A stretch of DNA of 64,000 nucleotides. Source: Rhodopirellula baltica SH 1 (GTDB taxonomy: Bacteria; Planctomycetota; Planctomycetia; Pirellulales; Pirellulaceae). The notes under the pieces are model-generated. The model worked only from the letters and a program-made list of their open reading frames with translations. It had not been told where the DNA came from and made no database searches. Below, one piece after another: positions 12,398 to 33,226 of the stretch. The position numbers were made by a program, and so were the translations under genes. The DNA lies in the NCBI RefSeq assembly GCF_000196115.1, contig NC_005027.1, positions 5,638,001-5,702,000 on the forward strand, given 5' to 3'. Each line of letters starts with the position of its first letter. Positions within the stretch are counted from its first letter, which is position 1.

Positions 12398-12420
12398 CTT
12401 GAAATTGCAGTTAAGGTTAT

Positions 12421-13746: not shown

Positions 13747-13762
13747 TTAATAGTGGTTGTGT

Positions 13763-14863: not shown

Positions 14864-14864
14864 G

Positions 14865-16064: not shown

Positions 16065-16133
16065 TGTATTCTATAGACGATGATAAGCCGTTTTCTTTGC
16101 TCGACGATCAATCGCCTGCGAGACATGCAACGC

Positions 16134-17711
16134 TCAGTATGCTCCCTCTCGGAGCACAATCGTTTTGATTGTGTGGATCAAGATGTAGATGTCGAGCCAC
16201 GGTGACCAATTCGTGACGTAGTAGCTGTCGAAGCGGACGCGTTGGTCGTAGGTTGTTTTGTTTCGGCCTGAGACTTGCCACAGGCCGGTGATTCCTGGAC
16301 GAACGCGTTGGTAGAGTGGCAGCACGCTGCCGTAGAGTGAGGTTTGGGAGGTCATGCATGGTCTGGGGCCTACTAGGCTCATGTCTCCCTTCATTACATT
16401 CCACAGTTGGGGTAGTTCATCGAGGCTGGATTTGCGGAGGAACGATCCTATGCCTGATATGACGCGTGGGTCATTTTGTAATTTCTGGTATTCGATCCAT
16501 TCTTGACGCATGTCTGGGTCGTTCTCGAGATAGTCCTCCAGGACTTGGTCTGCATTGATGACCATTGTCCGGAACTTCCATGCCTTGAAGAGCTTGCCGT
16601 CTTTGCCGACACGAGTTTGGCCATAGAACGCGGGGCCGGGGTCGCGCAACTTCAAGAGAAGGACGAAGGCGAGGATGAACGGAGAAAGTATGGTTAAGGC
16701 GAAGCCTGACAAGCAAATATCGACGAACCGCTTGATGGCTCTCGCGGGATGGTTGTGCAAATGATCTTTCAGGTGGATCCCCATGGCACCAGCACATTCG
16801 CGAGATCCTGACCAGAGACTGGGCAGTTGCATTTGCGAAGGGAGGATCAGCACGTTGGAGAAGTTGCCGGCATGAGACAAAACCTCGTTCATGTCAATTG
16901 TCTGGCAACCGCCCGGAGCCACGATTGACCAGCGAGCTTGTGTCTTTCGACGCAAGCGTTCTAGCCGTTGCACAGATCCCAGGTATGGGATGCCGGTGAG
17001 TTCAAGGGAATCCTGCGATGAGGCCGTCTTGGCAAAATCGACTACACCGAGAGGGCGGAGTCCACGTTGCGGAGCACGGGAATAGTATCTGTAGATCGCC
17101 CTGCCTTGAGGGCCAGAGCCGATGATGATAGCGTTTTCGCCCCACCAGCTCGTGGTGGAGCAGAGACGTCGCGTTGTTAATCGAGCTAGTGGGACAATCA
17201 GCGACGCAAGTGCGCTTGCCATCAAGAAAATTGCCAGTTCGGTAACGCTAAGCGTTGCCAGAACGAGATTTGCGACAATAGCGAAAGCAAAAGCGGCCAT
17301 CGACGCGAGGACGCATTGGCGCAATTCCAGAACAGGGCTCATACCTGTTCCAGGATACAGGCCGTAAATAGCCGCACATGCGACGTAGAACGTCATGACG
17401 CAGATGCTATTCAGTAGTAGGCCCGGATGAAGGCCAATCAAACCCAGCAAGACAAGTGAAAGCGTAGCGGCAAGAATCGAGAACGTTAACGCAGCTATGT
17501 CGGCGATGAATAGCGGGGTCAGTGTTAAAAGCACCTGCAGGGTGCCGGTCGCCTTGTTGCGCGTGATGCGTCGGCGTTTCGAGTTGTTTCCTGTGCGTTC
17601 GGTACGACGTTGATCAGTAACCGCGCCGCTGGGGACGAACGGGTTCAGTTGTTCGATCGTGTCTGTGCAAACGACACCGACCGGGAGCGGATTTGTGTCT
17701 AGTTGCGGCAT
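16134..17711 (-). CDS. wbaP: Undecaprenyl-phosphate sugar phosphotransferase (WbaP type)
   Basis: 525 residues. Four or five hydrophobic segments lie in residues ~55-185, followed by a nucleotide-binding-like domain (NAIIIGSGPQGRAIYRYY) and the conserved C-terminal bacterial sugar transferase domain: KRFVDICLSGFAL, membrane segment, DPGPAFYGQTRVGKDGK, KAWKFRTMV, LRKSSLDELPQLWNVMKGDMSLVGPRP and RVRPGITGLWQVSGRN. This domain moves a sugar-1-phosphate to undecaprenyl phosphate and starts repeat-unit assembly. ATG at 17711 is preferred over the TTG one codon upstream. It is the first gene of the minus-strand operon, so the operon's promoter should lie in the 364 bases upstream. WbaP (Gal-1-P) versus other C6-OH specific subtypes cannot be told by eye. 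Confidence 0.88.
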   Translation of the reverse strand: MPQLDTNPLPVGVVCTDTIEQLNPFVPSGAVTDQRRTERTGNNSKRRRITRNKATGTLQVLLTLTPLFIADIAALTFSILAATLSLVLLGLIGLHPGLLLNSICVMTFYVACAAIYGLYPGTGMSPVLELRQCVLASMAAFAFAIVANLVLATLSVTELAIFLMASALASLIVPLARLTTRRLCSTTSWWGENAIIIGSGPQGRAIYRYYSRAPQRGLRPLGVVDFAKTASSQDSLELTGIPYLGSVQRLERLRRKTQARWSIVAPGGCQTIDMNEVLSHAGNFSNVLILPSQMQLPSLWSGSRECAGAMGIHLKDHLHNHPARAIKRFVDICLSGFALTILSPFILAFVLLLKLRDPGPAFYGQTRVGKDGKLFKAWKFRTMVINADQVLEDYLENDPDMRQEWIEYQKLQNDPRVISGIGSFLRKSSLDELPQLWNVMKGDMSLVGPRPCMTSQTSLYGSVLPLYQRVRPGITGLWQVSGRNKTTYDQRVRFDSYYVTNWSPWLDIYILIHTIKTIVLREGAY

Positions 17712-18075
17712 CAAACGCTAGCCAAGGTGAACAAACAAAGAAGAGTGGGCGCTCCAGTCACCTTTCATTCGGTGGCTGGACGGTTGGCATTGTAATTGCG
17801 CTAACCAGGAATAAAGGCAGCTTCGCTCGACTTTCGAGCTGATCAATGGCGAGGTGCCGCCATCTCGTTATAAAGGTGTTTTGGTTTCCGTTAGGTAAAG
17901 TGTTTCAAGGATTTGGGAGGATTATGGAGCCGGACACTTGAGTCCATTGATGGGCTGTCGCACTTCAGATCTCACGTGAATGGGGGTCGGATTTGTTCGG
18001 ATCAACGCCAACGATTTTCAGTTTGATCGCTCATCCACCAGCGCTCACAAGTCGTCCATCCTCGACGTTGCGCTG
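17712..18075. other. Intergenic region upstream of the polysaccharide operon
   Basis: No convincing ORF. It must hold the promoter of the minus-strand wbaP operon and the 3' end of the radical SAM transcript. The only structure noticed is an imperfect hairpin at 17754-17779 (CCAGTCACC with GGTGGCTGG, one mismatch, 8-base loop) without a T-run. No clear -35/-10 pair was found. Confidence 0.5.
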
Positions 18076-19839
18076 TCATGTTGATTTGCCTTCGGTTTGG
18101 GTGTCGCAGCCGCCGGCTTGGGCAAGTGGCAATGGATGCAAATTGTTGGCTGGTGCAATGGCGGGCATGTCCGCGACGCTTCTCGGATAGGTCGCGTGGT
18201 TCTTTGCAAAGTCGATGGAAACATCGAGGGCGTCGAGCATCTTCTGCGTTTGCAGATCGAAGTGCAGGAAGCTGCCCATGACGGTATGCGCGTACTCAAA
18301 CTTGGTCGGTCCCATCATTGCGGCACGAACAAAGTTGCGAATGTAAAGCGACCGAGTGCGTTTGTCGCGAAGCATTCGCCAGGCGATGGTTCGAAAGCCC
18401 TTGAACATCCGGCGGAATTCCCAGGCATTGGGAACGTGTTTGTTGACGATCTTGATTCGTGCAGCGGTGTCGATCACCCGGTCCATGAACGCTCGTGGCG
18501 AGTACACGTTTTCGATGATGTTTCGAAGTTCTTGGTAAATCTCCACCCGATCTCGAGTCGTGATGAAATTCATACCGCTGATCGTTTGGTCCTTGGACTC
18601 AGCGCTTCGGAGCTCGTAATTCACGCCCGTGTCCTGGATCCAGTTGTGTTCGGAATCGATCAGCCGGCGTTCTTTGGCGAGACGGCGAGTGAGTTGTGTA
18701 TTGGGGAGTGCTGACAGCAGGCCAACCATGGATAGTGTGATGCCGCTTTCTTGGATGAAACGAATCATCGGGCCATCGGTGCCAGGTTTGTCAGTATCGA
18801 ACCCGATGATCAAACCGGCCGCGACGGAGATGCCATGGTCGTAGATCGTTCGAACTCGATCGATGATGGGGTGAACCGTGTTGATTCGTTTTTGGGTGTG
18901 AATCAGCGTTTCTTCATCGGGTGATTCAATTCCCAAAAAGACGTATCGAAACTGAACGTCGCGCATCAATTCCAGCAGTTCCTTGTCGTCAGCGAGGTTG
19001 ATGCTGGCTTCGGTTGAAAACACAAAGGGATAGTTGTGATCTTCGTTCCATTGCTTCAGGGCCACGAGCAATGGTTTGATCAGTTTGCGATTACCGATGA
19101 AGTTGTCATCAGTGAAGTCGACCCAACCTCGATAGCCCAAGTCGTAAAGCTTTTGAAGTTCGGCGAGAAATTGATCTGGCGTTTTGACGCGTGGTCGCCG
19201 GCCAAACAGTTCAATGATGTCGCAGAACTCGCAGTTGTACGGACATCCCCGCGAGGATTGCACTCCGACGTGCAGATAATCGTTGAAGTCGACCAAGTCG
19301 AAACGCGGAGTTGGTGTCGTGGTCACGTCCGGTTTGTGTGGCGATTCAAATTGGCCCTTGGGATTTCCATCTCGCCAAGCATCCAGCCACATCGGAATGG
19401 TCAGTTCGCCTTCGCCGACAATGACAGCGTCCGCGTCCTGGTAGATTTGCGGTTGGCTGGTTGGGTCAGGTCCGCCGACGACAACAAATTTGCCTTCGGC
19501 GTTGGCACGTTCAACCCACTGCAAGATGCCAGGTTGTTGAGGCAGCATTCCTCCCGTGCAGATCACATCAGCCCATTGCCAATCCGATTCCTCGACTGGG
19601 CCAACGTTTTGGTCCGCGATGCGGAATTCCCATTGTTGAGGCAGCAAAGCTGCGACGGTCATCAATCCAAGCGGTGGGGCGGTCGCTTTTGCACCAATCG
19701 CCTTGGCACTTTCCACGAAGTTCCAATAGTTTGTTTGCTCAAAACACGGTTGGATCATCAAGCAACGAACGGGCGAGTCCGGGCTCTCGGGCAGTCTCGA
19801 AGATGCCGGCAACCGGGACGGATTGGACGTCGAATGCAT
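18076..19839 (-). CDS. B12-binding-domain radical SAM protein (DUF4070 type)
   Basis: About 587 residues from the ATG at 19839; the frame is open to an ATG at 19962, and a third ATG lies at 19758 just before the first conserved block. Near the N-terminus is a cobalamin-binding-like fold: PPLGLMTVAALLPQQWEFRIAD, then VICTGGMLPQQ, VVVGGPDPTSQPQ and VIVGEGE. The radical SAM core follows with GCPYNCEFCD, Cys spaced X3 and X2 (TGT at 19245-19243 for the first), then FTDDNFIGNRKL, VFLGIESPDEETL and GLIIGFDTDKPG. The C-terminal third fits DUF4070. Such enzymes use SAM and often B12 for methylation or rearrangement. It reads away from the polyketide/lipid operon, which suggests but does not prove a shared product. 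Confidence 0.85.
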   Translation of the reverse strand: MHSTSNPSRLPASSRLPESPDSPVRCLMIQPCFEQTNYWNFVESAKAIGAKATAPPLGLMTVAALLPQQWEFRIADQNVGPVEESDWQWADVICTGGMLPQQPGILQWVERANAEGKFVVVGGPDPTSQPQIYQDADAVIVGEGELTIPMWLDAWRDGNPKGQFESPHKPDVTTTPTPRFDLVDFNDYLHVGVQSSRGCPYNCEFCDIIELFGRRPRVKTPDQFLAELQKLYDLGYRGWVDFTDDNFIGNRKLIKPLLVALKQWNEDHNYPFVFSTEASINLADDKELLELMRDVQFRYVFLGIESPDEETLIHTQKRINTVHPIIDRVRTIYDHGISVAAGLIIGFDTDKPGTDGPMIRFIQESGITLSMVGLLSALPNTQLTRRLAKERRLIDSEHNWIQDTGVNYELRSAESKDQTISGMNFITTRDRVEIYQELRNIIENVYSPRAFMDRVIDTAARIKIVNKHVPNAWEFRRMFKGFRTIAWRMLRDKRTRSLYIRNFVRAAMMGPTKFEYAHTVMGSFLHFDLQTQKMLDALDVSIDFAKNHATYPRSVADMPAIAPANNLHPLPLAQAGGCDTQTEGKST

Positions 19840-20298
19840 GGTCGCGGGTCTGGTTGAGAGGAAGTTGCGGGAGTCCAGCAGTGCCGAATTGATCGGCCGA
19901 GATCTGATGCGGCCGCCTCCACACGGTTTAATCAACCTAGTCAGAATAGGTGGTTCCGCCAAATCAGAACTGTGGTTTTAGCGGGAAATTCACGGTGCGG
20001 CGGAGTGGACAGTTGAGGCCGTTGGGCCACGTTGACAACCCGCTGAATCAAGCTAGAGCCGATTTGGCGGGCTTTGGCAATGGAACACGCGTGCTGGAGA
20101 GACCGTGGATCCAATCGGGATGATCCGCACAGGCCGCGTGATCGATTTGATTCGGATCTTACGGTTTGGCTCCCACGGCAAGGGCGTCTTTTTATGTCAC
20201 AACATTTGCACTAGGGATTCTGTGAATAAACTTGGGCGATACGAAACATTTGTACTTCTGCCGCTTTGAGCGCCGTTCAACGAAGCCCTGCTCACATC
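19840..20298. other. Divergent intergenic region between radical SAM gene and PKS operon
   Basis: About 460 bases between the proposed starts (about 300 if the radical SAM gene starts at 19962). It should hold promoters for both directions. No pair of hexamers with good consensus and spacing was found on either strand; TTGCAC at 20206 has no well-spaced -10 partner. No RNA or repeat was recognised. Confidence 0.45.
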
Positions 20299-23200
20299 AT
20301 GTCTGACTCGCCCTATCGACGAATGCCCTTGATCACGGGAGCCAGCGGAATGCTCGGCTCCTACGTGGTTGCTGAGTTGTTGCGGGGGCGAATCGAGTGC
20401 GCGGTCCTGGTCCGAGCTAAGGGGAAGCAAACAGCGGAACAACGCATCGACCAAATCTTGGCGCGTTTCGAACAGGCGTGGCAAGTGTCGCTGCCAAGGC
20501 CAAAAGTTTTGGAAGGCGATTTGAACCAGTCTCGATTGGGATTGCCAGACGAGTCAATTCAGTGGGTGCGAGCCAATTGCGATCGAATGCTGCATAGTGC
20601 AGCGAGCTTGAGCTTCTTGCCCGCCGATCCGACGGGCGACAACGAACCCTACCGAACCAATGTCGATGGAACCCGCGAAGTCGTGGCTTTCTGCAAGGCC
20701 GTTGGGATCACGCAGCTGCATCATGTTTCCACCGCTTATGTTTGCGGTACCCGTTCGGGACGGGTGAAAGAAACCGAAGGTGATACAGGCCAGTCGTTCG
20801 CAAACGACTACGAGCGAAGCAAGCTGATCGCCGAAGGCATCGTTCGAGAAGCGTTTCGTGGTTCAAACCTGACCGTTTATCGCCCATCGATTGTGATCGA
20901 TCGGACGGGACTGTCACCTGTCTCGGGTGATCGAACGATTTATGGTGCATTCTCGATGTACCAGATGTTGGCATCACGATTTGGATTGCCGGAAGATGGT
21001 CAGTGGTTTCGCGACCTTGGCTTTTCAGGGAGCGAACGCAAGAACATCGTCGATGTGGACTGGATCGCTCGAGCGATTTGCAAGGTGATGAGCACGCCGA
21101 GATTGCACGGTCGGACTTATCATCTAACGACTCGAGAAGGCACAGCAATCAAATCGTTGGACGCCGCGTTCCATTCTGCCACCACGAAATGGCTTCAGAC
21201 GCGAAAACCGGATCGGCTGAAACGACCACGGCAACTCGATCGGCCCGATCCCACTGGCCATTCCACTCAACGCGAAGAGTTGGATCAGATGGCGGATCCG
21301 TTCGTGAAAACGTTCTTGCCATACTTTCGGGATGATCCGGTCTTTGATCGCGCCAACATCGATGATGTGATCGCGACAACGCACTTGGATGATACACCCG
21401 AGATTGGCAGCACCGAACTACTGCAGATGATCGGCAATTGGTCAGCGGTTCCGACAAGGGTGCCGAAGGCAGCGAAGCGACCGTCAGCCGAACCGCAAGC
21501 CGCACTTCAACCATCGGCAACGCACCGGAGTGGCGACCCCGACGACTGTGTGATTTGTGGTTTCGAGGTTCGTTTGCCAGGTGGAGTTGATAACGCGAAA
21601 GCGTTTGAAAGCATGCTGTTTGAGGGGCGTTCGGTGATCGCACCGATGCCTGAAGACCGATTGAATCGCGAATTGTATTTTGCGAAGCAGCATGGTGTTC
21701 CAGGAAAAACGTACACGCAGTTGGGAGGTTGTGTTTCGCCCGGCCCGTTGGACGCCAACGTCGAGAATGCGATTGAGTCTTTAGGCGATTTTGATTTGAC
21801 GCATCGCCAGTTTGCCCAGGTCGCCGTCGCGGCACTCAAGGCCGCTTCTGGCACGGGCAGCTTGTCGTCGGATTCGCCGCTGCATCGGGCGTCCAGTCGG
21901 ACGCTATCGATCAAAGCCATGCGAGCTGGCGTGTTCGTCGGCCACAGCGGTGGAACCGAACTGGGTGGCCCGCTCGCGATGGCGACGATGGCAAAAACCG
22001 CGATGGAATTGGTGGATCAGGTGCCGTCAATGCACCACATCGATTCTGATTTGCGGAACCGAGTCAAAGACACCGTTGTATCGGCCATTCGACGTGATCG
22101 GCCTCGGTATGAGTCAGGTCATTCGCCAGCGTTCAATGCGTACTCGGCAGCGTCTTTGGCGGCGAGATTGATGGGATTCGAAGGCCGTCGAGAGGTCATC
22201 GACGCGGCTTGTTCATCTTCGCTCTTGGCATTGCAGCATGCGGCTTCGGCAATTGCAGCGAATCGGTTGGACTTGGCAATCGTTGGCGGTGCAACGTTCA
22301 ACAATGTCGACAATCTAGCGTTGTTTTCTCAGTCGGGCGCGTGTAGCGAAACCGGATCGTTCCCCTTTGATAACCGTGCCAGCGGATTGATCAGCAGCGA
22401 AGGTTACGTCGCGGTTGTCGTCGCTCGGCGAAGCGTCGCGGAAGCCAACGGGCTCCCTGTTTTGGCAACGTTGCGAGGTGTGGGGGTTGCGTCCGACGGA
22501 AAAGGCAAAGGCCTCTGGGCTCCGCGAAGTGAAGGTCAGCAAACGGCGATGCGTCGCGCGGTTGATGCAGAACCTCTCAACATAGATTACTTGGAGTGCC
22601 ATGCTACAAGCACTCAAGTGGGCGATGCAACGGAATTGGAAAGTTTGACTTCGCTTTTGCGAGATGGCAAAAGCACCCGGACGGTCTTGCCCATCGGTAG
22701 TGTCAAAAGCAATTTGGGCCACTTGTTGGAAGCCGCTGGATTGGTTGGCGTGGTAAAATGTTTGCTGGCGATGCGTCGAGGAGAGATTCCGCCGTCAATC
22801 AACTTTGCTGTTCCAACGGAACGTCACGACTGGAGCGATCCAGCGGTTCGGATTGTGGATCGGGTGGAACCGTGGCAGCAGCGAACCGCGTCCAGCGGTC
22901 GCGTCGCCGCGGTCAATGCATTCGGCATTGGTGGATTGAATGCTCACGCGGTGATCGAAGAGAAGCCTTCATCCGGCGCTTCCGCATCAGAAGCCAAGTT
23001 GACTGAGGAGCCCATCGCGATCGTGGGTCGTGGAGTGGTTTTGCCGGGTGCTGGAACGTTGCAAGAGTTCCAGGCGTTGCTTCAAAGCGGGCGATCCGCA
23101 ATCAGTGATCCGCCGGAAGGACGCTGGGTGGTTGATGCGAAGAACGGATCTTGGATGGGTTTGGATCCGAATCGGTCCAGCTACACAACGCTACATTGCC

Positions 23201-26200
23201 GCGGTGGATACGTTCGGGATTTCAAGTTCGACGCGCAGTCCTACCGTATCCCGCCGAAAATGGTGGCGAATGCCAATCCCGCGCAGCTGATGTTGATTGA
23301 AGCGGTTCGCCAGGCGATGGACGAATTCGATGGTGGGAAGTGGTCGGTCGACCGCGAGCGTGTCGGTGTTGTCGTCGGTACGATTTTTGGCGGTCAGTTC
23401 AGTAACGAGCTGCAAATTGGTTTGCGATTGCCTGAGATCGCAAAGCATCTGGGTCAAGCATTGGCGGCGATGGGATGGGACACATCAGCAACCCAGTCCG
23501 CCGCCGATGAACTTAGAAAGTTGGCACTGAAAAAGTATGGTGCCCTTCTTGATGAGACCGGTGGTTTCACCGCCAGCACGCTCGCGTCTCGAATCGCCAG
23601 AACGTTCGACCTGATGGGCGGAGCGTTTGCTGTTGACGCGGACGAGGCATCTGGTGGCTTAGCGCTCATCACAGCTATGGAACAACTGCATTGCCATGCG
23701 ATCGATCTAGCTTTGTGCGGCGTGACCCAGCGAGGCATGGATCTGGTTGCTTTTGAGCAGCTCGCTCACAAGAAACAACTGTTGCCATCAGGTCGACCCG
23801 AAGACCTACCTGCCGACGGATCGCAGATTATCCCCGGCGAAGGGGTCGCAGTTCTGACGCTCCAACGTCTGTCCGACGCCAAAGCGGAAGGAAGAACGAT
23901 TCTGGGAGTTTTGTCCAAGCCAACCGAGTCTTTCGCGGGGGATGTTAAGGTGGCTCGTGCGGAATCAGCGAGTCTTTCTGAAGTGCCCGGATTTATTTCT
24001 TCACAAAAATTGGTCGGCCAAATCGGGCATATGGGCGGCGGTCAGGGTATCGTTCGAACGATAGCGGCGACATTGTCACCCAAGTTCAATCGCAAGGATG
24101 CTTCCGGCATTTCAATCCCCATCGGTGAAGTTGCCGACGACGGATATCGAGTTAATTATAGTGTCGCCCCCCAGATGAACTACGAGTCGTCCACATTGTC
24201 TTCCGGCGAGTCCACTTTGATTTCGACCTCCCTAGCATCCACGCCTCAGCCGACTTCTTCCGCGCCAACACGGTCTCGTTCCGAAGCGATCGTGACGGCG
24301 GCGGACTTGGATGCGTCAGAAACTTTAGTTGTTCGACTCCAGTGTGCATCGTTGGATGCGCTGACAGCTTCCTTGGAAAAGATCGCTGGTGGGAAGCCTT
24401 CGACCGAGACCCATGTTTCGGCATTCTCGCCTTCGTTGGCAATGACTTTCCGAGCAGTCTTGTTGGCCAAAGGCGCTAGCGAGTTATCAGCGGCGGCATT
24501 GGCGGCATTGGCTGGTCCAGTTCGCCAGCAGGTGTCTGGCGTGCTTTCAAAACATGATGGCTGGGTTTGGCTGCCAAATGCTCGTTCCAGTGAGTTCTCC
24601 GATCCACGCGTCGGTTGGTTGTTCCCTGGGCAAGGTTCGCAGTACTCGGCCGTGCCCACTTGGTTGCAAACAAAGGATGGTTCGGCCAGCCAAGCCTTCT
24701 TGGATGGATTCGATCGAAATCTGAAGTCGATGGGACTCCCTTCGGTTTCGGATCGATTGCACGACCCCGACTCTCAACTTGGTCGAGACGTATGGTGGAC
24801 CCAGGCTTGGGTTTTGGCGGTCGGTTCAATGTTTGCCGATTCACTGATGCGTCGCGGTTTGCGTCCCGATGCGGTGCTCGGTCACAGTTTTGGTGAGTGC
24901 ACAGCAGCTTGGTGTGCTGGCGTTGTGTCAACGCGACAAGCGATCGAGTTTGCCAAGTCGCGAAGTGACAGTGTGGTGATGACAACACGAGAGCGTGGTG
25001 AATTGCTCTCCGTTCGCGGTGCACCATCGGCGGTAGATGCTGCCCTGCAGGGATCTGACGTTCGCTACACGATTTCGCATCACAATTCGCCACAGCAAAC
25101 AGTGATCGCTGGATCTCCTGACCAAATGGCAGCTGCAAAGAAGCAGCTTGCTGCATCTGGAATGGCGTCAATCGTGATTCCTGTTCCAGCCGCATTCCAC
25201 ACGCCCGAGATGATGCCGGCGCAAGAGATGTTGCGAGCTCGGTTCACCGGTCAGAACGCACGACCTCCACGGTTTGCTTTCCTGTCCGCCGTTTCGAATC
25301 GCTACTTGGCCGAGCCCTCCGACATTGTCGACAATTTGGTCACCCAGTTGACCCGTCCGGTGTGCTTTAGCGGCGCGACCGAGCGTTTGGTCCACGATGG
25401 TTGCGAGTTGCTGGTGGAAGTAGGTCCCAACAATGTGCTGACTCGTTTGGCCAACGCGACGGTCGCCCCGCATGTCCTGTGTTTGTCGGCAGATGATCGT
25501 GGTCGCGATCCGAATCGGCAGCGGCAATTGATCGATTTGGCTTATGAATCCCTCGGTCGTTCGGTGGACTCGTCGAACCGGTCCACTGACAGCGCGGTTG
25601 GCGAAGTCACTTTGGCACCGCAAGCGGTCGCGACGAGCGTTGTTGAACCGAGCCAGCCCACGTTTGAAGTCGTCGATGTGACTCGTCGAAGTCGGCGACA
25701 ACAGGAGACTGTTCAGGATGAAAGTCGCAATGAAGCCAATCTAGCTTCGAAAGCGATGGCGAGTGACGCTGGCACAACGTCTGCTTCTATTCCGTCAATC
25801 AATGGCAATGGAAAGGCCCATGTAAACGGCGTGCATCACGGCAGTGTTGCGTCGGGGCATCTTCAACCGGTTGCGGTTGCCACGGAAGCAATCGACTCAG
25901 CGGTACAAGAGGACTTGCAAGACCGCGTCCGCTCGGCGCGATCGTTCTTGTTTGATCTCGTTGTCGACCTGACGGGATACGATCCTGAAGTGATTGAATT
26001 CGATGCAGACTTGGAAGCCGAGTTGGGCGTCGACAGTATCAAGAAAGCTCAGTTGATCGGCGAGATCGTTCAGTGGGGCAACTTGGAAGTCGACACGCAA
26101 TCGATGCGATTGGCTCAGTTCGCTTCGCTCAATGACATTCTGCAATTGGTCGGTGATCCTGCGAGTTGCGGCGAAGTCGAATTGATTGACGCAACATTGG

Positions 26201-29091
26201 ACGCTTGCGAAAGTGATATCGAATGCAGGCAGGTCAGCGATGAAGCTCCGACCGACATTGCTGAATCATTGCGGCGATTGATGATTGATTTGGTCGTCGA
26301 TCAAACGGGATACGATGAAGACATCATCGACATGGATGCTGATCTCGAAGGAGAACTGGGCATCGATAGCATCAAGCGAGCTCAATTGCTCGGCGAACTG
26401 GAACAACAATATGAGTTGCAGTCGCTTCGTGAGTCGAATTTGAAGCTTTCTGATTTCCCGACCCTCTCATCCATTCACGCTTTTGTGATGGATCAGATTG
26501 GTCAGCCTACGGACGAAAAAAAAAACGCCTCGCTGAATCAGAATCCCACCGCAACTGAGGAGACACCTCAAGCTCCTGCGACGGGAACACATCGTTTCGT
26601 TATGCGGATGACATCGGCACCGCGACGAAAAGGGATGCCGACGATGCCGCAGCTGAATGGGGCGGCGCTGATCGTCGGCAACAATCCTGTCGCGGATTCG
26701 GTTGAAAATCGATGTCGGATGGCTGGGGTAGCCGTTTATCGAATCGCCGCCGAACTGACACTGTCAGATTTGGATACCGAGCTCGATCGAATTTGGGCCA
26801 ATGATTCGACGCCACATTTGTTCCTGACAACGCCACATGATGATGCGGCTTGCTGGACAACGTTGGACACCGCCGGTTGGGAACGACGACATTCCGATGC
26901 ACTCGCGATTCCTTATCGAGTGTGTCAACGCTGGATGCAGCGAACGATCGATGATGATCGTATGGGCAAGGCTTCCTTGGTTACCACGCTGAAGTTGGGT
27001 GGCGGTTTCGGATTCGACGCGATGTCTGAATCGGTCCAGACTTCTGAACAGATCAAAGGTCGCTCGGCTGAGTCTGGCGGGTTGGCTGGTCTAACCAAAG
27101 CGATGTTGATCGAGGCTTGGATGCGTGGATATCGCGACACGCCGATGTTGGTTGTCGATCAAATTGAAGGTGCGAGCCCTGATGATTTGGTGGACGGTGT
27201 CTTCCGAGAATTGGCGGTTCCGTCTTATGACGAAGAAGTCGCCGTGGCGGGTGAACAACGCTTGGCCACGGAAGCCTGTTATCGTCCGCTTGGTATCGCC
27301 GCCGTGGCGAACCAAATCACTCGGGGCGGAACCTGGATTGTTGCCGGCGGCGGTCGTGGGATCACTGCGATGACGGCGATGGCGCTGGCCGAACGGCACG
27401 GGTTGAAACTGCATCTATTGGGAATGGCCCCCGTGCCGGAAATCGATCCGTCCATGCGAGAGCATGCTCAGCGAGATCGAGCGGATCTGCGTCGTGTGAT
27501 GATGGCTCGCATTCAGAAAGAAGGTGGCAACCCGGTCAAGACTTGGCGGCAACTCGAGAAGGCCATCGAGATCGATCTGACTTTGCAAGCGTGTCGAGAA
27601 CGCGGGATCGAAGCGACCTATCACAGCGTCAACGTTTCAGATTTTAAAGCCGTTGCTGATGTCGTCGAGAAGATCCGAGGCATGGAAGGGGCGATTCACG
27701 GAGTCATCCAAGGTGCTGGGTCCGGTCAAGATGCACGTTTTGATCGCAAGCGTCCCGACAAGGTCGCTCAGTGTTTCTCCGCCAAGGTGGATGGGACGAT
27801 CGCTTTGGCTGCAGCGACTCAGGAGGATCCATTGGAGTTTTTCGTCGGCTACGGTTCGATCAGTGGACGCTTTGGCGCCAACGGTCACACGGACTACTCC
27901 GCCGCGAATGACATGCTCGCGAAGTTGATTGGCCGGTTGCGTCAACAACGCCCTCAGACCCGCTGCCTGACTTTTCATTGGCACGCTTGGGGAGACATCG
28001 GAATGGCGACCAAACCGGAAGCCAAGCTGGCACTTGACATGATTGGCATGGAATTCATGCCTGCCGAAGAAGGACTGCAGCACTTCCTAAATGAAATGGA
28101 GCATGGTGGTGATGAAGCGGAAGTGCTGATCACTGACCGTCGCTACGTCCGCAAGTTCTTTCCCGCCGAGTCATCGCGAGCCGGGCATTCGTTGCCAGGC
28201 CCCTCGCCGATGATTGACCCCACAGAACGGTTGGTAGCGACCTCGCGGGATTCGTTTGCGGTAACGCTCGACCCTGAACGTGATTTGTTTTTGAAGCACC
28301 ACCTCGTGAACGGTCGTCCTACGCTGCCATTCGTTATGGCAATTGAAATGTTGGCCGAGGCGGCACGTTTTGGAACCAATCAGAAGGTTGTTCGTTGTCG
28401 AAACATTTCGGCGACCATGCCACTGAAGCTCATAGGGGATGATTCGTTAGCAGTCGAGCTATTGCAAGACCCAACCGAGCATACGCGGTGGTCTTTGGTC
28501 AGCGATCTGCGTCGACGCGACGGGCGGTTGGTCCAAGCTCAACGCCCACATTTCTCGGCAATGATCGAACTGGGAAACGACAGCGTGCCCATTGCGGCAA
28601 TCGGCGATACGAAAGTCACGGAGGCCGCAGTGCAGTACTCCGACGAGACAGCCCCGATTTACCACGGACCATCGCTGCAGTGTTTGCGGTCAATTGGATT
28701 TGCGAACGTCAACGCGGGAATGTCCGGCGATGATATGTCCAAACTTCCGATCGCGGTTGGGACCATTGTTGCCCCTAGTCCAGCTCATTTGGCGGGCGAG
28801 GCACGTCCTTTGATGGGATGGGTCTTGTCGCCGGCGACGATGGATGCGGTTTTGTACGCCGCGGGCATGCTTGCATACCATGTTGCGGATCGAGCAAGTC
28901 TGCCGGTCTCGTTTGATTCAATCGAGATTGGACGTTTGCCTGATCCCGGTGAGCCATTAAAGGTCCATGTACAATGGGAAGGTAAATCAACCACCGTCTC
29001 GGATGGTGGGATGATGTCCGCGATCTTGGTTGGGCAAAACCAGGAGTTGATCCTAAGGATCGAAGGCTACCAAATTGGTTGGCTTCGCTAA
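20299..29091 (+). CDS. Type I PKS/PUFA-synthase-like multidomain synthase: TR-KS-CLF-AT-ACP-ACP-KR-DH
   Basis: About 2930 residues from the ATG at 20299 (a TTG at 20266 is 11 codons upstream; positions below count from the TTG). Residues ~20-380: thioester-reductase-like SDR with LITGASGMLGSYV, VSTAYVCGT and YERSK. KS1 from ~428 has Cys649 (DAACSSS), His779 and His819, the full condensing triad. KS2 from ~915 has Glu1127 where the catalytic Cys should be (VDADEAS), so it resembles a chain-length factor as in PfaC. AT ~1450-1740: Ser1541 in GHSFGE, His1645. Two ACPs: Ser1924 (LGVDSIKK) and Ser2035 (LGIDSIKR). KR from ~2356 with Tyr2544. DH-like hotdog with H2679-x3-G-x4-P. No enoyl reductase domain. 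Inferred: an iterative synthase for a long acyl chain, reductively processed; the product is unknown. No phosphopantetheinyl transferase is in view. Confidence 0.88.
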   Translation: MSDSPYRRMPLITGASGMLGSYVVAELLRGRIECAVLVRAKGKQTAEQRIDQILARFEQAWQVSLPRPKVLEGDLNQSRLGLPDESIQWVRANCDRMLHSAASLSFLPADPTGDNEPYRTNVDGTREVVAFCKAVGITQLHHVSTAYVCGTRSGRVKETEGDTGQSFANDYERSKLIAEGIVREAFRGSNLTVYRPSIVIDRTGLSPVSGDRTIYGAFSMYQMLASRFGLPEDGQWFRDLGFSGSERKNIVDVDWIARAICKVMSTPRLHGRTYHLTTREGTAIKSLDAAFHSATTKWLQTRKPDRLKRPRQLDRPDPTGHSTQREELDQMADPFVKTFLPYFRDDPVFDRANIDDVIATTHLDDTPEIGSTELLQMIGNWSAVPTRVPKAAKRPSAEPQAALQPSATHRSGDPDDCVICGFEVRLPGGVDNAKAFESMLFEGRSVIAPMPEDRLNRELYFAKQHGVPGKTYTQLGGCVSPGPLDANVENAIESLGDFDLTHRQFAQVAVAALKAASGTGSLSSDSPLHRASSRTLSIKAMRAGVFVGHSGGTELGGPLAMATMAKTAMELVDQVPSMHHIDSDLRNRVKDTVVSAIRRDRPRYESGHSPAFNAYSAASLAARLMGFEGRREVIDAACSSSLLALQHAASAIAANRLDLAIVGGATFNNVDNLALFSQSGACSETGSFPFDNRASGLISSEGYVAVVVARRSVAEANGLPVLATLRGVGVASDGKGKGLWAPRSEGQQTAMRRAVDAEPLNIDYLECHATSTQVGDATELESLTSLLRDGKSTRTVLPIGSVKSNLGHLLEAAGLVGVVKCLLAMRRGEIPPSINFAVPTERHDWSDPAVRIVDRVEPWQQRTASSGRVAAVNAFGIGGLNAHAVIEEKPSSGASASEAKLTEEPIAIVGRGVVLPGAGTLQEFQALLQSGRSAISDPPEGRWVVDAKNGSWMGLDPNRSSYTTLHCRGGYVRDFKFDAQSYRIPPKMVANANPAQLMLIEAVRQAMDEFDGGKWSVDRERVGVVVGTIFGGQFSNELQIGLRLPEIAKHLGQALAAMGWDTSATQSAADELRKLALKKYGALLDETGGFTASTLASRIARTFDLMGGAFAVDADEASGGLALITAMEQLHCHAIDLALCGVTQRGMDLVAFEQLAHKKQLLPSGRPEDLPADGSQIIPGEGVAVLTLQRLSDAKAEGRTILGVLSKPTESFAGDVKVARAESASLSEVPGFISSQKLVGQIGHMGGGQGIVRTIAATLSPKFNRKDASGISIPIGEVADDGYRVNYSVAPQMNYESSTLSSGESTLISTSLASTPQPTSSAPTRSRSEAIVTAADLDASETLVVRLQCASLDALTASLEKIAGGKPSTETHVSAFSPSLAMTFRAVLLAKGASELSAAALAALAGPVRQQVSGVLSKHDGWVWLPNARSSEFSDPRVGWLFPGQGSQYSAVPTWLQTKDGSASQAFLDGFDRNLKSMGLPSVSDRLHDPDSQLGRDVWWTQAWVLAVGSMFADSLMRRGLRPDAVLGHSFGECTAAWCAGVVSTRQAIEFAKSRSDSVVMTTRERGELLSVRGAPSAVDAALQGSDVRYTISHHNSPQQTVIAGSPDQMAAAKKQLAASGMASIVIPVPAAFHTPEMMPAQEMLRARFTGQNARPPRFAFLSAVSNRYLAEPSDIVDNLVTQLTRPVCFSGATERLVHDGCELLVEVGPNNVLTRLANATVAPHVLCLSADDRGRDPNRQRQLIDLAYESLGRSVDSSNRSTDSAVGEVTLAPQAVATSVVEPSQPTFEVVDVTRRSRRQQETVQDESRNEANLASKAMASDAGTTSASIPSINGNGKAHVNGVHHGSVASGHLQPVAVATEAIDSAVQEDLQDRVRSARSFLFDLVVDLTGYDPEVIEFDADLEAELGVDSIKKAQLIGEIVQWGNLEVDTQSMRLAQFASLNDILQLVGDPASCGEVELIDATLDACESDIECRQVSDEAPTDIAESLRRLMIDLVVDQTGYDEDIIDMDADLEGELGIDSIKRAQLLGELEQQYELQSLRESNLKLSDFPTLSSIHAFVMDQIGQPTDEKKNASLNQNPTATEETPQAPATGTHRFVMRMTSAPRRKGMPTMPQLNGAALIVGNNPVADSVENRCRMAGVAVYRIAAELTLSDLDTELDRIWANDSTPHLFLTTPHDDAACWTTLDTAGWERRHSDALAIPYRVCQRWMQRTIDDDRMGKASLVTTLKLGGGFGFDAMSESVQTSEQIKGRSAESGGLAGLTKAMLIEAWMRGYRDTPMLVVDQIEGASPDDLVDGVFRELAVPSYDEEVAVAGEQRLATEACYRPLGIAAVANQITRGGTWIVAGGGRGITAMTAMALAERHGLKLHLLGMAPVPEIDPSMREHAQRDRADLRRVMMARIQKEGGNPVKTWRQLEKAIEIDLTLQACRERGIEATYHSVNVSDFKAVADVVEKIRGMEGAIHGVIQGAGSGQDARFDRKRPDKVAQCFSAKVDGTIALAAATQEDPLEFFVGYGSISGRFGANGHTDYSAANDMLAKLIGRLRQQRPQTRCLTFHWHAWGDIGMATKPEAKLALDMIGMEFMPAEEGLQHFLNEMEHGGDEAEVLITDRRYVRKFFPAESSRAGHSLPGPSPMIDPTERLVATSRDSFAVTLDPERDLFLKHHLVNGRPTLPFVMAIEMLAEAARFGTNQKVVRCRNISATMPLKLIGDDSLAVELLQDPTEHTRWSLVSDLRRRDGRLVQAQRPHFSAMIELGNDSVPIAAIGDTKVTEAAVQYSDETAPIYHGPSLQCLRSIGFANVNAGMSGDDMSKLPIAVGTIVAPSPAHLAGEARPLMGWVLSPATMDAVLYAAGMLAYHVADRASLPVSFDSIEIGRLPDPGEPLKVHVQWEGKSTTVSDGGMMSAILVGQNQELILRIEGYQIGWLR

Positions 29092-29094
29092 GCC

Positions 29095-30255
29095 ATGTAT
29101 CACGCGACGACTTCTCAACCGGCATTGCTGCCGTCGAACTGGTACACCGATCCATCGATTCATCGACGCGAAGTGTCCGTGCTGCGTCATTCCGGTTGGC
29201 AATTGGTCACCACGACAAAGGGGCTATCCAGAGTCGGCGACTATCAAGCGATGGACCGGTTGGGAGTGCCGTTGATCGTACGCAACCACGGCGGCGAATT
29301 GGTCGCACTCCGAAATGTTTGTGCTCACCGACAGTGCCAATTGGTTTCCGAAGGAGGCGGTCACGCAACAGAACTGAAGTGCCCCTATCACGGATGGCAG
29401 TACGGCGGTGACGGACGGACTCGCAAGATTCCTGCTGCAAAAAACTTCCCGCATTTTGATCGTGAACGGTATCGGCTGAGCAGCTTTCCAGTTCGCGTCG
29501 TCGGACAATTGGTCTTTGTGAATCTGGCTGGCGAATCCAATTCGCTCGGTAACGACGCTTGGTTGGATGACTTTGCGACGAAGACCAATACGGCCTCGTG
29601 GCAGCAGGTTCTTTGCGAGGAACTCGAGTACTCATGCGATTGGAAAATCCCGATCGAAGGTTCGCTGGAAAGTTATCATCTGAGTGAGGTCCACTCGCAA
29701 ACATTTGGCAACGACCCGGGCGAGAGTGAGAGCACTCATATATTGTTGGATTGGGGCACCAGATTTCGGACCGATGCGCGAGACGATTCGTTCTTGGCTC
29801 GGACGGAAGAGCGGGTGATGCGTTGGTTGGTTGGAGATTTTTCGACCCACTATCAGCATGTTCACGTGTTCCCAAATATCATGGCATCGTTCACGGACAC
29901 AATGAGTTTGGTTTATCAGATCACACCCACCGGGACATCGAAGTGCAAGCTGACCGTATTCGGGTTTACCCGCCGTCCCACCCGGTCCGGCTTGATTCGA
30001 AATCGGGTCGCGAATGGATTGGGGCGCAGTGCCGCATCGATGGCTCGAAAAGTGTTGGCCGAAGACGCGGCGATTTTCCCGCTGGTTCAGGCCGGCATGG
30101 ATTCGGCTCGTTGCGACAATCCGGATGAAGACGCCGGTCGGATCTTTGGCCGCTGTGAAGAAAGACTGCACGCCTTTCATTTGCACTGGAACACATCAAT
30201 GAAATCAGAAATCGCGGCTTCGAAAGAAGGTACGCTGGAAGATCACCATGAATGA
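29095..30255 (+). CDS. Rieske non-heme iron oxygenase, alpha-subunit-like
   Basis: 386 residues, ATG only 3 bases after the synthase stop, so it is almost surely co-translated. The Rieske [2Fe-2S] site is complete: Cys76-x-His78 (CAHRQCQL) and Cys96-x2-His99 (CPYHGW). The catalytic domain holds ESYHLSEVHSQTF, with His195 and His200 as likely mononuclear iron ligands. This fits ring-hydroxylating/choline-monooxygenase-like oxygenases, which use O2 and reductant to hydroxylate or demethylate. No dedicated reductase is adjacent; the ferredoxin-NADP reductase at 36.4 kb could serve but is not linked. Inferred: oxidative tailoring of the synthase product. Confidence 0.87.
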   Translation: MYHATTSQPALLPSNWYTDPSIHRREVSVLRHSGWQLVTTTKGLSRVGDYQAMDRLGVPLIVRNHGGELVALRNVCAHRQCQLVSEGGGHATELKCPYHGWQYGGDGRTRKIPAAKNFPHFDRERYRLSSFPVRVVGQLVFVNLAGESNSLGNDAWLDDFATKTNTASWQQVLCEELEYSCDWKIPIEGSLESYHLSEVHSQTFGNDPGESESTHILLDWGTRFRTDARDDSFLARTEERVMRWLVGDFSTHYQHVHVFPNIMASFTDTMSLVYQITPTGTSKCKLTVFGFTRRPTRSGLIRNRVANGLGRSAASMARKVLAEDAAIFPLVQAGMDSARCDNPDEDAGRIFGRCEERLHAFHLHWNTSMKSEIAASKEGTLEDHHE

Positions 30256-31045
30256 GGGATCGAGGACAGGCATGAAACCATTGGCGGACTTGCAAGGCAA
30301 ACGAGCGTTGGTGACCGGTGCGAGCCGAGGGATCGGTCGCGCGATCGCGTTGGAATTGGCTGCTCGCGGTGCGTCGGTTGCGATCAACTTTTTGAAGTCG
30401 GAAGAGCGTGCGGTCGAGGTCGCAACGGAGATTTCCAATTCCGGCGGAGCGGTGATGTTGGTGCGAGCTGACATCTCTTGCAAGGAAGACGTCGACGCGA
30501 TGGTCGAGAGCGTCGTTGAGAAGTGGGGCGGATTGGACATTGTTGTCAGCAATGCCGCGGCGGGCGGTTTTCGCGATCTGAATGATTTGACACCTGTCAA
30601 TTTCGACGCGGTTCTTCGCAGTAACTCAGCGCCGGTGGTGTGGTTGGCTCAAGCGGCTTGGAAGTATTTGGCCGAGGGCGAATCTCACGGCAAGTTGGTC
30701 GCCGTCAGTAGCCACGGTTCGAATTGGGCGGTGCCTCATTACGGAGCCATCGGTGCATCCAAGGCAGCGTTGGAAGCGTTGGTCCGTCATCTTGCGTTGG
30801 AGTTTGGTGATCGTGGGATCAACTTCAACTGTGTACTGCCAGGCATCATTGCCACAGACGCGATCGCCAGCATGCCCGGTTCGGAAGGTTTGATTGAAGC
30901 GGCGAGCGAACGAATGATGGTTGGTAAACGACGGCTATGCGAACAAGACGTTTCGTCAGTGGTAGCGTTTTTGTGTGGTGATGGAAGTGATTTGATCCAA
31001 GGGCAAACGCTCGTGATCGATGGTGGCGTCAGCATTCGCGTGTGA
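30248..31045 (+). CDS. SDR family oxidoreductase, FabL-like enoyl-ACP reductase III
   Basis: 265 residues. The start at 30248 overlaps the Rieske gene by 8 bases and has GGAAGA upstream; ATG 30272 is an equally good alternative. TGASRGIGRAIALELAARG is the NAD(P)-binding loop and NAAAG the structural Asn motif. The active site reads Tyr165-x6-Lys172 (HYGAIGASKAALEAL), the YX6K spacing that separates FabL enoyl reductases from ordinary YX3K ketoreductases. The tail LIQGQTLVIDGGVSIRV also fits FabL. The preceding synthase has KR and DH but no ER domain, so this may supply enoyl reduction in trans (inference). A housekeeping FabL or another SDR activity remains possible. Confidence 0.83.
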   Translation: MNEGSRTGMKPLADLQGKRALVTGASRGIGRAIALELAARGASVAINFLKSEERAVEVATEISNSGGAVMLVRADISCKEDVDAMVESVVEKWGGLDIVVSNAAAGGFRDLNDLTPVNFDAVLRSNSAPVVWLAQAAWKYLAEGESHGKLVAVSSHGSNWAVPHYGAIGASKAALEALVRHLALEFGDRGINFNCVLPGIIATDAIASMPGSEGLIEAASERMMVGKRRLCEQDVSSVVAFLCGDGSDLIQGQTLVIDGGVSIRV

Positions 31046-31103
31046 TGCGAAAGTCGGCCATGCAAGTATTTGTGACAGATGTTTCTAGGCGATTGGTAGT
31101 TCG

Positions 31104-32384
31104 ATGATTGATCCATTGATTCTTAGACGGGCGACGATAGCGCTGGTGGTCCTGTTGGCGGGGATGGTTGTTTGGCAGGTGATGAAGTCCACCGCGGAAC
31201 AATCGACGGCAACGAAAGAACGTGATCCGAATGAGCCTGAACTGAGCCTGGGTAGTTTTGCGCAACCGTCTTTGTCTTCCAGATCCGATGGAGAGTCGGC
31301 CGGTGAACTGACCCTTCGCGTTGGAAAGATCGGATCCGCGCCGCGACGCGACGAAATCACTGTGTTGAAATCGTTGCCAAATTCCGAACGCGAGTGGACA
31401 CGTGCTTACACGATGGCGAAGGGGAACTCGTGTCGTTTGGTTGCTCCCGGAGCATCCGTTTCTGCACCTTTGTCGATGGCTCGCAGTGGTCAGCATGGCG
31501 AGTTGGGGCGAATCTCGGCGATCACGATTGGATTGGAAATGGCGTCACAAGGTCGGCAAAAGCTGCCTTCTGTTACCCGGCAACAGGTCGATCAGTACTT
31601 TGAGGAGCATCGTTTGTCGGTCCAGCCCAAGTTGTACTACGACGAGGAAAAACGGGTTTACTTCGGCACCGATTGCACGGCAGCTTTCTATGAGATTGAA
31701 CGTCCCGGCTACACAATCGAACCGGAGCCAATGATCAATGTCGCGGTCAGTCGATTTCGTACGCTAGGGATTGTTGGCACTTCGGAGGAGTCCGGAGTTC
31801 TATTGGGGCGGACCCTAGCATTGATGTTCGCATTTGAAAAAAGCGACGACACCGTTTCGGGTGTGGCCGATGGTGGTCGTCAAGCGTTGGAGTTGATGCT
31901 GTTGCACTTGCCCCAGGACTCAACGGCGGATGACCTCAACATCGAGGTCTACATCACCAGTGATGAGCGAGCCAATTTGCACCGATTGGATTTGGGCAAC
32001 GAAGCGGTCAATTCGCCGCTTCCGACGATCTCTTCAGAGGTTCGTTTCGACAAGATGGTTTTGATGGGGATGTACCCGGCGGAACCCGTCGTGACGGAGA
32101 TTCATTTCCGTTCGGCTGGCATCCTTTCGATGGAAATGATCACTCGGCTCACTCGAGGAACCAGCGACCGTACGGGGATGAGCTTGACCGAAATCTTGGA
32201 TGAATTTGGAAAGCTCGCGATGCAGTCACCCATCGACACTGCGCCAAAATACGAAGACCCGGAAGTGGCGGAAGCCGCTCGTCGCAAGTACGAACGGTTG
32301 AAGGCGATGCGAGAAGAGGTTTCGCGTGACGACGCGATTTTGATGCCATCGAAGCGTCCGATGATGACCGGACTGGATGACTGA
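31104..32384 (+). CDS. Membrane-anchored protein of unknown function
   Basis: 426 residues, 58 bases after the FabL-like gene on the same strand, so possibly the last gene of the operon. Residues 8-26 form one hydrophobic segment (ATIALVVLLAGMVVWQVM), giving an N-in anchor with the rest outside the cytoplasm, or an uncleaved signal. The remainder is soluble and mixed; no catalytic motif was recognised. The C-terminal ~50 residues are charged and probably helical (EAARRKYERLKAMREEV). I do not recognise a family. A structural or assembly role for the operon's product is only a guess from position. Confidence 0.7.
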   Translation: MIDPLILRRATIALVVLLAGMVVWQVMKSTAEQSTATKERDPNEPELSLGSFAQPSLSSRSDGESAGELTLRVGKIGSAPRRDEITVLKSLPNSEREWTRAYTMAKGNSCRLVAPGASVSAPLSMARSGQHGELGRISAITIGLEMASQGRQKLPSVTRQQVDQYFEEHRLSVQPKLYYDEEKRVYFGTDCTAAFYEIERPGYTIEPEPMINVAVSRFRTLGIVGTSEESGVLLGRTLALMFAFEKSDDTVSGVADGGRQALELMLLHLPQDSTADDLNIEVYITSDERANLHRLDLGNEAVNSPLPTISSEVRFDKMVLMGMYPAEPVVTEIHFRSAGILSMEMITRLTRGTSDRTGMSLTEILDEFGKLAMQSPIDTAPKYEDPEVAEAARRKYERLKAMREEVSRDDAILMPSKRPMMTGLDD

Positions 32385-32509: not shown

Positions 32510-32938
32510 CTAGCGATCGCCACGGCCACCGTAGCCGCCGCCACCGCCTCCGCCGTATCCTCCACCGCCGCCACCATAGCCACCGCCGCGGTTGCCACCG
32601 CCGCCGCCGTAACCACCGCCGCCACCGCCTCGGCCGCGACCGCCGCCGCCACCACCGTAGCCTCCTCCTCCACCACCGCCGCCACTACGCGGCTCGCGTG
32701 GACGAGCTTCATTGACTGTCACGCTACGGCCATCGATTTCATGACCGTTCAGGTTTTCGATCGCGTCCTTCGCGCCTTCGGCATCCGCCATTTCGACAAA
32801 GGCAAAACCGCGACTACGTCCTGTCTCTCGGTCCATGATGATGTTCACAGCTGACACTTCGCCATACTGTTCGAACGCGCCACGGAGTTCTTCTTCGGTG
32901 GCCTTGAACGAGAGGTTCCCGACATAAATGTTCGTCAC
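32510..32938 (-). CDS. Glycine-rich RRM RNA-binding protein
   Basis: 142 residues from the GTG at 32938; the frame runs on to 33130, but the extra sequence does not look like part of the domain. The RRM fills residues 1-80, with RNP2 as IYVGNLSF and RNP1 as [10 protein letters not shown], both with the aromatic residues that stack on RNA. After [12 protein letters not shown] the last ~60 residues are nearly all Gly, Tyr and Arg (GGGGYGGGG, ending YGGRGDR), as in cold-inducible RNA-binding proteins of cyanobacteria and plants. Inferred role: single-stranded RNA binding, perhaps under cold or stress. It is monocistronic, with its own terminator. Confidence 0.9.
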
Positions 32939-33226
32939 TAATCTGATACCCTGCAAACCGTCACCAACGAGGCAAGATGCCTCTCGCATTCGGGCTCGTT
33001 TCACTGGAAAACGCTTCCAAAACAAACCAACCAACCCAAATGTGGTGCTCAACTGACTGCGCAGCGTGAACCATCCCGATACCCCAGTCAATCCCATCTT
33101 TTTGCCCCTCCCTCGGAATTCGCGAAACAATTCGAGAGTGTTCCAGGCGGTTTTACTCTGGATTTCGAGGGGTGACTCAATCGTGCCTCTTGCCCGCCAA
33201 TCCGCCTCCGAGCGGAAGTCTTGGTG

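Follow-up and report, generated by a model that had tools for sequence, protein, structure and literature searches.

Among the described systems that resemble the one considered here are Pfa systems, the synthases of polyunsaturated fatty acids (PUFA), which make cis double bonds with a FabA-type dehydratase (DH), and the heterocyst-glycolipid (hgl) islands, the products of which are long-chain alcohols. Pfa synthases, like the other secondary lipid synthases of Shulse and Allen, are iterative-type megasynthases that combine a ketosynthase (KS) and its chain-length-factor (CLF) partner with an acyltransferase (AT), tandem acyl carrier proteins (ACPs) bearing DSIK motifs, a ketoreductase (KR), and a DH. 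A listing in PMC3098273 names Gemmata obscuriglobus (type I) and Planctomyces limnophilus (type J) as planctomycetes with pfa-like clusters; the name Rhodopirellula does not occur in the main text of that paper. The parts of hgl islands, according to a legend in PMC11804610, are KS, CLF, AT, ACP, KR, DH, enoyl reductase (ER), thioester reductase (TR), and phosphopantetheinyl transferase (PPTase), and an excerpt of PMC13291983 describes zeamine and fabclavine biosynthesis as involving a PUFA-like synthase that has recruited a TR. The present work concerns a five-gene locus of Rhodopirellula baltica SH 1, analyzed within a window of 64,000 bases (5638001–5702000 of the 7,145,576-base single-contig genome); coordinates below are those of the window unless a locus or contig is named. 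Its central gene encodes a 2941-residue synthase of the order TR-KS-CLF-AT-ACP-ACP-KR-DH, and four further genes encode a radical S-adenosylmethionine (SAM) protein, a Rieske oxygenase, a short-chain dehydrogenase/reductase (SDR), and a membrane-anchored protein.

The locus is a real, conserved, multi-gene pathway of lipid type, as its parts, their motifs, their conservation, and their co-occurrence in other genomes show; each reaction and the product we infer from sequence. We consider it probable, if far from assured, that the locus specifies an iterative secondary-lipid synthase of the Pirellulaceae, in which a FabL-type enzyme reduces enoyl groups in trans and the chain leaves by reduction as a long-chain alcohol, to be tailored afterwards.

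Compared with Pfa systems, the TR is here fused N-terminally, the KS-CLF and AT-ACP-KR-DH portions lie in a single chain, neither PfaD nor a FabA-type DH was matched, a FabL-like SDR standing in place of the former, and the first ketosynthase (KS1) occupies a separate branch. The hgl islands share CLF, AT, ACP, KR, DH, ER, and TR with this locus, a likeness of parts list alone, without an HglE sequence comparison; unlike it, they consist of several genes and include a glycosyltransferase and an ABC transporter, while radical SAM and Rieske proteins do not appear in the legend. The zeamine and fabclavine synthases share a PUFA-like synthase with a TR domain but, by the excerpt cited above, belong to an amino-chain/nonribosomal-peptide hybrid with an aminotransferase, a domain that Pfam does not find here. 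By titles and abstract openings, in a literature from which most subscription journals are missing, we found no publication on the cluster or its product. An antiSMASH "hglE-KS" cluster, with no product given, is listed for a Pirellulaceae strain in a portion of PMC13190842; the lipid terms looked for do not occur in PMC12078418, and PMC10896814, judging by its excerpt, has a type III synthase as its subject.

Organization of the locus and architecture of the synthase

The preliminary description of this DNA had proposed an 8.8-kb gene encoding TR, KS, a Cys-less KS, AT, two ACPs, KR, and DH, a Rieske gene 3 bases after it, a Yx6K reductase gene overlapping the latter, an anchored protein without known family, and a divergent B12/radical SAM gene. 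The listing of open reading frames (ORFs) returned all five genes at window positions 18076–32384, and their coordinates, Pfam domains, and alignments agree with that account. The radical SAM gene lies on the minus strand, divergent from the other four. Promoter and terminator scans of the window gave counts at chance level (5 against 5.7 expected, and 19 against 17.9).

The synthase gene (P0001, 20266–29091, plus strand) has an uncertain start codon, the candidates being TTG at 20266 and ATG at 20299 or 20323. Pfam places NAD_binding_4 at residues 23–271, Acyl_transf_1 at 1451–1733, KR at 2355–2576, and PKS_DH_N/PS-DH at 2654–2936, together with two ketoacyl-synt, one Ketoacyl-synt_C, and two PP-binding matches. 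Functional motifs were compared in an alignment of 15 synthases, the window's included. The N-terminal TR (20311–21475) scores 166 bits against the Pfam cut-off of 20.1, has MxaA (4u7w, E 1e-21) as its best solved match, and keeps the Rossmann and YxxxK motifs in all 14 synthases that hold the region, that of G139 being interrupted by a contig end (G and L numbers designate genomes and loci of our samples). KS1 (21535–22980) retains its Cys and both of its His residues in all 15. In the second, CLF-like domain (23002–24165) the active-site Cys is replaced throughout, by Glu in 12 synthases, the window's among them, and by Asp in three. KS1 and KS2 align in a single run of about 505 residues with the "ORF10" chain of 6riw (E 4.8e-61), the second-best solved match behind 7zma; we take 6riw to be the KS-CLF didomain of Moritella PfaC.

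The AT (24616–25464) carries GHSFGE in all 15 synthases and the AFH motif with two variants, TFH in G142 and AYH in G139; by the motif rules for such domains it reads as malonyl-type. Both ACPs (26002–26442) have DSIK in every aligned synthase, and the Ser, Tyr, and Asn of the KR (27328–27993), like the expected His and Asp of the PKS-type DH (28225–29073), are present in 15 of 15. A search of 72,556 plasmid records at E ≤ 1e-100 returned no match to P0001, i.e., no close plasmid relative. In G128 the synthase is split over two ORFs (L056 8626–17335), the second spanning AT to KR-DH.

Partner proteins

The minus-strand protein P0002 (18076–19962) has B12-binding, Radical_SAM, and DUF4070 domains, all above the Pfam cut-offs. 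The first possible start codon is TTG at 19962, with an ATG at 19839; the true start is uncertain, and alignments with other genera begin near residue 55–60. The protein is 60–80% identical to eight orthologues, among which C240, C244, and C247 are invariant, and 97% identical to the copy of R. europaea 6C, the nearest named locus. This domain set is ascribed to HpnP and HpnP-like proteins in the available part of PMC10697835, which also states that HpnP is a proven lipid C-methylase, that activity is confirmed in the HpnP clade only, and that HpnP-like proteins outside this clade have no known function. Unlike HpnP, P0002 belongs to no curated equivalog: 16 NCBIfam models matched it at E ≤ 0.001, none near its cut-off (HpnR reached 53 against 650) and none of them a model of HpnP. 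A further difference is its association with a lipid-type synthase. Tes, GrsA, and Mss are other radical SAM enzymes of lipids named in an excerpt of PMC11868695.

The Rieske non-haem iron oxygenase (P0003, 29095–30255, plus) begins three bases past the synthase stop. Pfam finds Rieske and Ring_hydroxyl_A, the ligands of the Rieske cluster and the iron-site residues E.YH....H and ED are kept in 16 of 16 copies, and the bridging position is Glu. A few kilobases downstream, a gene for an oxidoreductase with an NAD-binding domain (36394–37368, plus), linked also in the near relative G151, possibly encodes the electron donor of the Rieske protein.

The SDR gene (P0004, 30248–31045, plus; adh_short_C2) overlaps the Rieske ORF by 8 bases. 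The Yx6K motif that it shares with FabL is present in all 23 aligned copies, distant clusters included; two further copies, masked by an antisense ORF, were found by frame search. FabL (3oic) is the best solved match, at E 5e-47 with the next at 1e-37, and in each cluster where the protein was aligned it adjoins this synthase family, a setting that sets it apart from FabL itself. P0004 is a candidate trans-acting ER.

The last gene encodes a conserved membrane-anchored protein (P0005, 31104–32384, plus) with an N-terminal hydrophobic stretch. The window's copy has no Pfam match; among 11 members a single match was obtained, at E 0.029 in one, and no solved relative was found up to E 1. G011 and G075 hold a second copy far from the synthase (L079 7459–9303 and G075:C4:341172–342263); these extra copies are 44% identical to the window's P0005, against 33–34% for the cluster copies of the same genomes.

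None of the five window genes encodes a PPTase. One lies within each of two related clusters (L060 2680–3372 in G098, by Pfam; L064 2514–3272 in G097, by similarity). The R. baltica genome also holds a stand-alone TR homologue (G000:C1:5169144–5169962; L167 7124–8629), 43% identical over 273 residues; a distant match to the acyltransferase profile lies some 15 kb away, and there is no Ketoacyl-synt_C match nearby.

Conservation and co-occurrence

Within a family sample of 149 genomes, R. baltica's own included, 31 have a synthase match at E ≤ 1e-100, a count from which genomes may be missing, as two candidates per genome were scored; the genus accounts for matches in 10 of its 13 genomes. A TR fused to the KS was seen in 11 of the 31, spread over five genus codes (g1, g12, g37, g39, and g46), and P0005 occurs in precisely these 11 of the 149. 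The radical SAM protein (E ≤ 1e-100) is likewise found in 11 family genomes, every one with a synthase match: nine of the fused-TR genomes (all but G045 and G091), G098, and G108.

A different collection, scanned with a profile of the radical SAM protein, gave the same association. Among the best 80 of 252 relatives kept, the 13 loci with at least 58% identity all come from planctomycetes by record. Nine of these have synthase parts alongside, which at L083 amount to no more than a piece of TR where the contig ends. The other four (L089, L090, L091, and L100) come from draft genomes in which the synthase match (E 1e-167 to 1e-190) lies on a different contig and linkage past contig ends is possible; one of these genomes, that of L091, is G108 of the family sample. 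The remaining 67 of the best 80 have no TR, KS, or KR-DH alongside at E ≤ 1e-6; an AT match occurs at L130 and L153, and an SDR match at L130 as well. Ten genomes with more distant radical SAM homologues were searched for the synthase, nine giving no match and one (Calditrichota) a weak one at 6.5e-31. Among the neighbors of 16 radical SAM loci without an adjacent synthase, an ORF listing without profile annotation showed no common lipid theme.

In a tree of 29 radical SAM rows, eight linked rows form one branch (100/99), and the linked L088 groups with two planctomycete rows in which the gene is not adjacent. Of the 80 loci, 32 were entered; L087, L089, L098, and L099 were dropped for a stop in translation, and the partial L100 was not among the rows entered. 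Across the phylum, a KR-DH query against 246 genomes, with three candidates per genome scored, matched five at E ≤ 1e-50: the window's genome, two more from its family, and two from a second family in the class, one of the last with a 45% identical SDR adjoining the synthase.

The same genes are grouped in other genera, amid other flanking genes. Conservation extends beyond the synthase, contrary to the main condition under which the preliminary description would have been refuted. A chance neighborhood is rejected, since the core is constant while the flanks differ between genera.

An additional acyltransferase and looser cluster forms

Most relatives have one gene more than R. baltica. A protein of 450–663 residues with an HHxxxDG motif is encoded at every one of the 11 fused-type clusters that we examined beyond the species group of the window (G141, G045, G091, G153, G127, G138, G142, G075, G011, G139, and G128). 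It resembles PapA5 of the mycobacterial phthiocerol dimycocerosate pathway in being an acyltransferase with this motif and in its location next to a synthase of polyketide type. Of the 11 fused-type clusters in the family sample, all but one have it, the exception being that of the window, and the six genomes nearest the window, its own included (G000, G149, G150, G151, G152, and G155), hold no close copy genome-wide: the E values of their best matches do not go below 1.8e-48, whereas congeners having the gene reach 1e-103 to 2e-202. For G150, the cluster of which reaches a contig end, only the genome-wide result counts. Moreover, 13 of the 20 synthase-matching family genomes in which no fused TR was seen have a match to the acyltransferase profile within about 20 kb on the same contig.

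The five-gene set as originally delimited is recurrent across genera but not fixed. The acyltransferase is extra in 10 of the 11 family clusters; four of the 11 have no Rieske gene beside the synthase, and two of these four lack the radical SAM protein as well, both tailoring genes being dispensable among clusters. In Roseiconus nitratireducens L087, too, the Rieske gene is not beside the synthase, the rest of that genome not having been searched. Within the fused type, no Rieske gene was seen in the absence of the radical SAM protein, a pattern that would fit Rieske hydroxylation after the radical SAM step, though few losses underlie it.

In a looser form, a separate TR gene lies near a synthase with KS, KS, and AT, and with KR and DH further on, and near an SDR gene (43–47% identical); it is found in G129 (with a 30% identical Rieske protein), G097 (with a PPTase by similarity), G054, and a second cluster of G045. 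G108 and G402 are intermediate (Rieske 39%, SDR 47–49%). In G148, synthase and SDR are present and no TR lies within the stretch examined. G045 holds both forms, one with the fused-TR synthase and one in which the TR is a gene of its own, accompanied by an SDR and two large KS proteins (locus L066 at G045:C1:1010000–1029900, and L043/L044).

Ketosynthase ancestry

The term "PUFA-like", applied to the synthase in the preliminary description, holds for layout (the KS1-KS2 run with 6riw and the DSIK ACPs) and fails for lineage. For the whole protein the top NCBIfam match is indeed PfaA (TIGR02813, 545 bits, with NF045894 next at 541), far below the cut-off of 1010. The PfaD model TIGR02814 has no match at E ≤ 0.001 in the R. 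baltica genome, so another ER would be needed for saturated chains. A FabA-type DH domain was not found in the synthase, Pfam at E ≤ 0.001 showing only PKS_DH_N and PS-DH.

In a KS tree of 35 rows, the 17 planctomycete KS form one branch (100/100), within which the fused-TR rows are nested as a branch of their own (100/100); PfaA-like, PfaC-like, and modular rows all fall outside it. It should be noted that the Pfa reference KS were sought in plasmid records and are few, only the S. globosus cluster being annotated with an adjacent PfaD, and that the Persicobacter and Azospirillum rows are unannotated and named by similarity. The tree label "TRseparate" was checked for clusters of G108, G129, G097, G054, and G045 and assumed for G148, G087, G019, G114, and L178.

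Proposed pathway

The assembly line would work as follows. The AT would load malonyl units onto both ACPs, KS1 and its CLF-like partner would elongate the chain repeatedly, and the KR and DH would process each beta-keto group. The separate FabL-like SDR would serve as the trans enoyl reductase, a role filled by PfaD in canonical Pfa systems. The N-terminal TR could then free the long chain as an aldehyde or, after a second reduction, a primary alcohol. Methyl group(s) would be put on the chain by the HpnP-like B12/radical SAM protein and a hydroxyl group by the Rieske oxygenase, additions that are plausible from the families concerned, and in most relatives the PapA5-like acyltransferase would form an ester with the alcohol or with a hydroxyl group. 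The likeliest product is a fatty alcohol with a long (branched, hydroxylated) chain, or a derivative of it, presumably residing in the cell envelope. A lipid or polyketide pathway with reductive release and tailoring, the core of the preliminary description, fits the domains, motifs, and conserved neighborhood, with the reservations stated for "PUFA-like" and for the gene set.

Several observations weigh against this interpretation. The tailoring genes are not constant: the Rieske gene is not beside the synthase in G127, G142, G045, and G091 (the rest of these genomes was not searched), and G045 and G091 have no match to the radical SAM protein at E ≤ 1e-100. Co-occurrence of the radical SAM protein and the synthase, which speaks for the pathway, has hypergeometric probabilities of 6e-9 by genome, against the 31 synthase genomes, and 2e-5 by genus, but these figures take no account of shared ancestry. 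Two enzymes fall short of the models that would name them, the TR with 124 bits against 213 for TIGR01746 and the SDR with 228 bits against 328 for the FabL model PRK08063; the SDR could instead be a second KR or an alcohol dehydrogenase. The window has no acyltransferase gene at the locus, and in relatives the match of the acyltransferase to PapA5 (1q9j, E 1.9e-9, the best solved match) is weak. Finally, KS1 alone scores 245 with NF045894, 194 with Pks13, and 166 with PfaA, and the neighbor of the planctomycete KS branch consists of modular-type rows (87/80), not Pfa; hgl sequences are not among the rows of the tree, in which the Gloeothece plasmid KS has an unknown role, and a lipid-type ancestry of the synthase is not shown.

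Should the pathway outlined above be correct, it would extend the secondary-lipid synthases by a lineage in which a FabL-type enzyme reduces in trans and the chain is released reductively. By neighborhood and by co-occurrence on other contigs, one HpnP-like clade is tied to a lipid-type synthase, which offers a concrete candidate substrate for that clade. R. baltica SH1 is a long-studied model planctomycete, and the cluster is therefore directly testable. An extension of the proposed pathway, which we regard as improbable, is a lipid class not yet described, in which the radical SAM protein would act on an unactivated carbon of a very-long-chain alcohol, methylating it or, in the manner of the lipid-coupling enzymes Tes, Mss, and GrsA, joining or cyclizing chains; the result would be an envelope lipid peculiar to the Pirellulaceae that spans the membrane or anchors polysaccharide.

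Alternative explanations and genomic surroundings

An alternative that shares its chemistry with the preferred pathway and differs in the fate of the product is a heterocyst-glycolipid-like system, in which a long-chain alcohol aglycone would be glycosylated or deposited with exopolysaccharide. Besides the similar parts of hgl islands, CLF and TR among them (excerpt of PMC11804610), the gene neighborhoods speak for it. In the window, the radical SAM gene adjoins a polysaccharide locus (9066–17714, minus strand) that encodes a flippase, a glycosyltransferase, a sugar transferase, and two sulfotransferases. The G142 cluster adjoins glycosyltransferases, a Wzy-type protein, and a flippase; Wza- and Wzz-type genes surround the clusters of G141 (by Pfam) and of G045, G091, and G153 (by similarity); and sugar transferase and flippase homologues lie by the cluster of G128. 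Such a neighborhood hints at an envelope role. On the other hand, the conserved core contains no glycosyltransferase, and the five flank genes of G138 and of G075 are housekeeping or of unknown kind, with no polysaccharide locus and a single glycosyltransferase, in G075. The adjacency may be due to chance, because polysaccharide loci are common in planctomycetes. We consider this alternative unlikely.

Somewhat less likely again, in our opinion, is that the product is no structural lipid and that a reduced polyketide is secreted, as a bioactive metabolite of small size. Such a role would suit the patchy presence of the synthase, matched in 31 of the 149 genomes of the family and in 10 of the 13 of the genus, the variable tailoring genes, and the closeness of the KS branch to modular-type rows, but no exporter, regulator, or resistance gene was recognized among the core genes, and lipid synthases are what an iterative set with a CLF partner and a reductase in trans resembles. 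A true Pfa-type synthase of polyunsaturated fatty acids or hydrocarbon precursors, the reductase of which would yield an aldehyde for alkane or alkene formation, is favored by the top PfaA match, the DSIK ACPs, the KS-CLF layout, and the two planctomycetes listed with pfa-like clusters (PMC3098273, in part), yet is improbable given the score far below cut-off, the absence of a PfaD match in the genome and of a FabA-type DH by Pfam, and the separation of KS1 from both the PfaA-like and the PfaC-like branch.

The next gene noted downstream of the cluster, a short way off on the minus strand (32510–33130), encodes an RNA-recognition-motif protein; its counterparts in four near relatives are 91–98% identical where they align.

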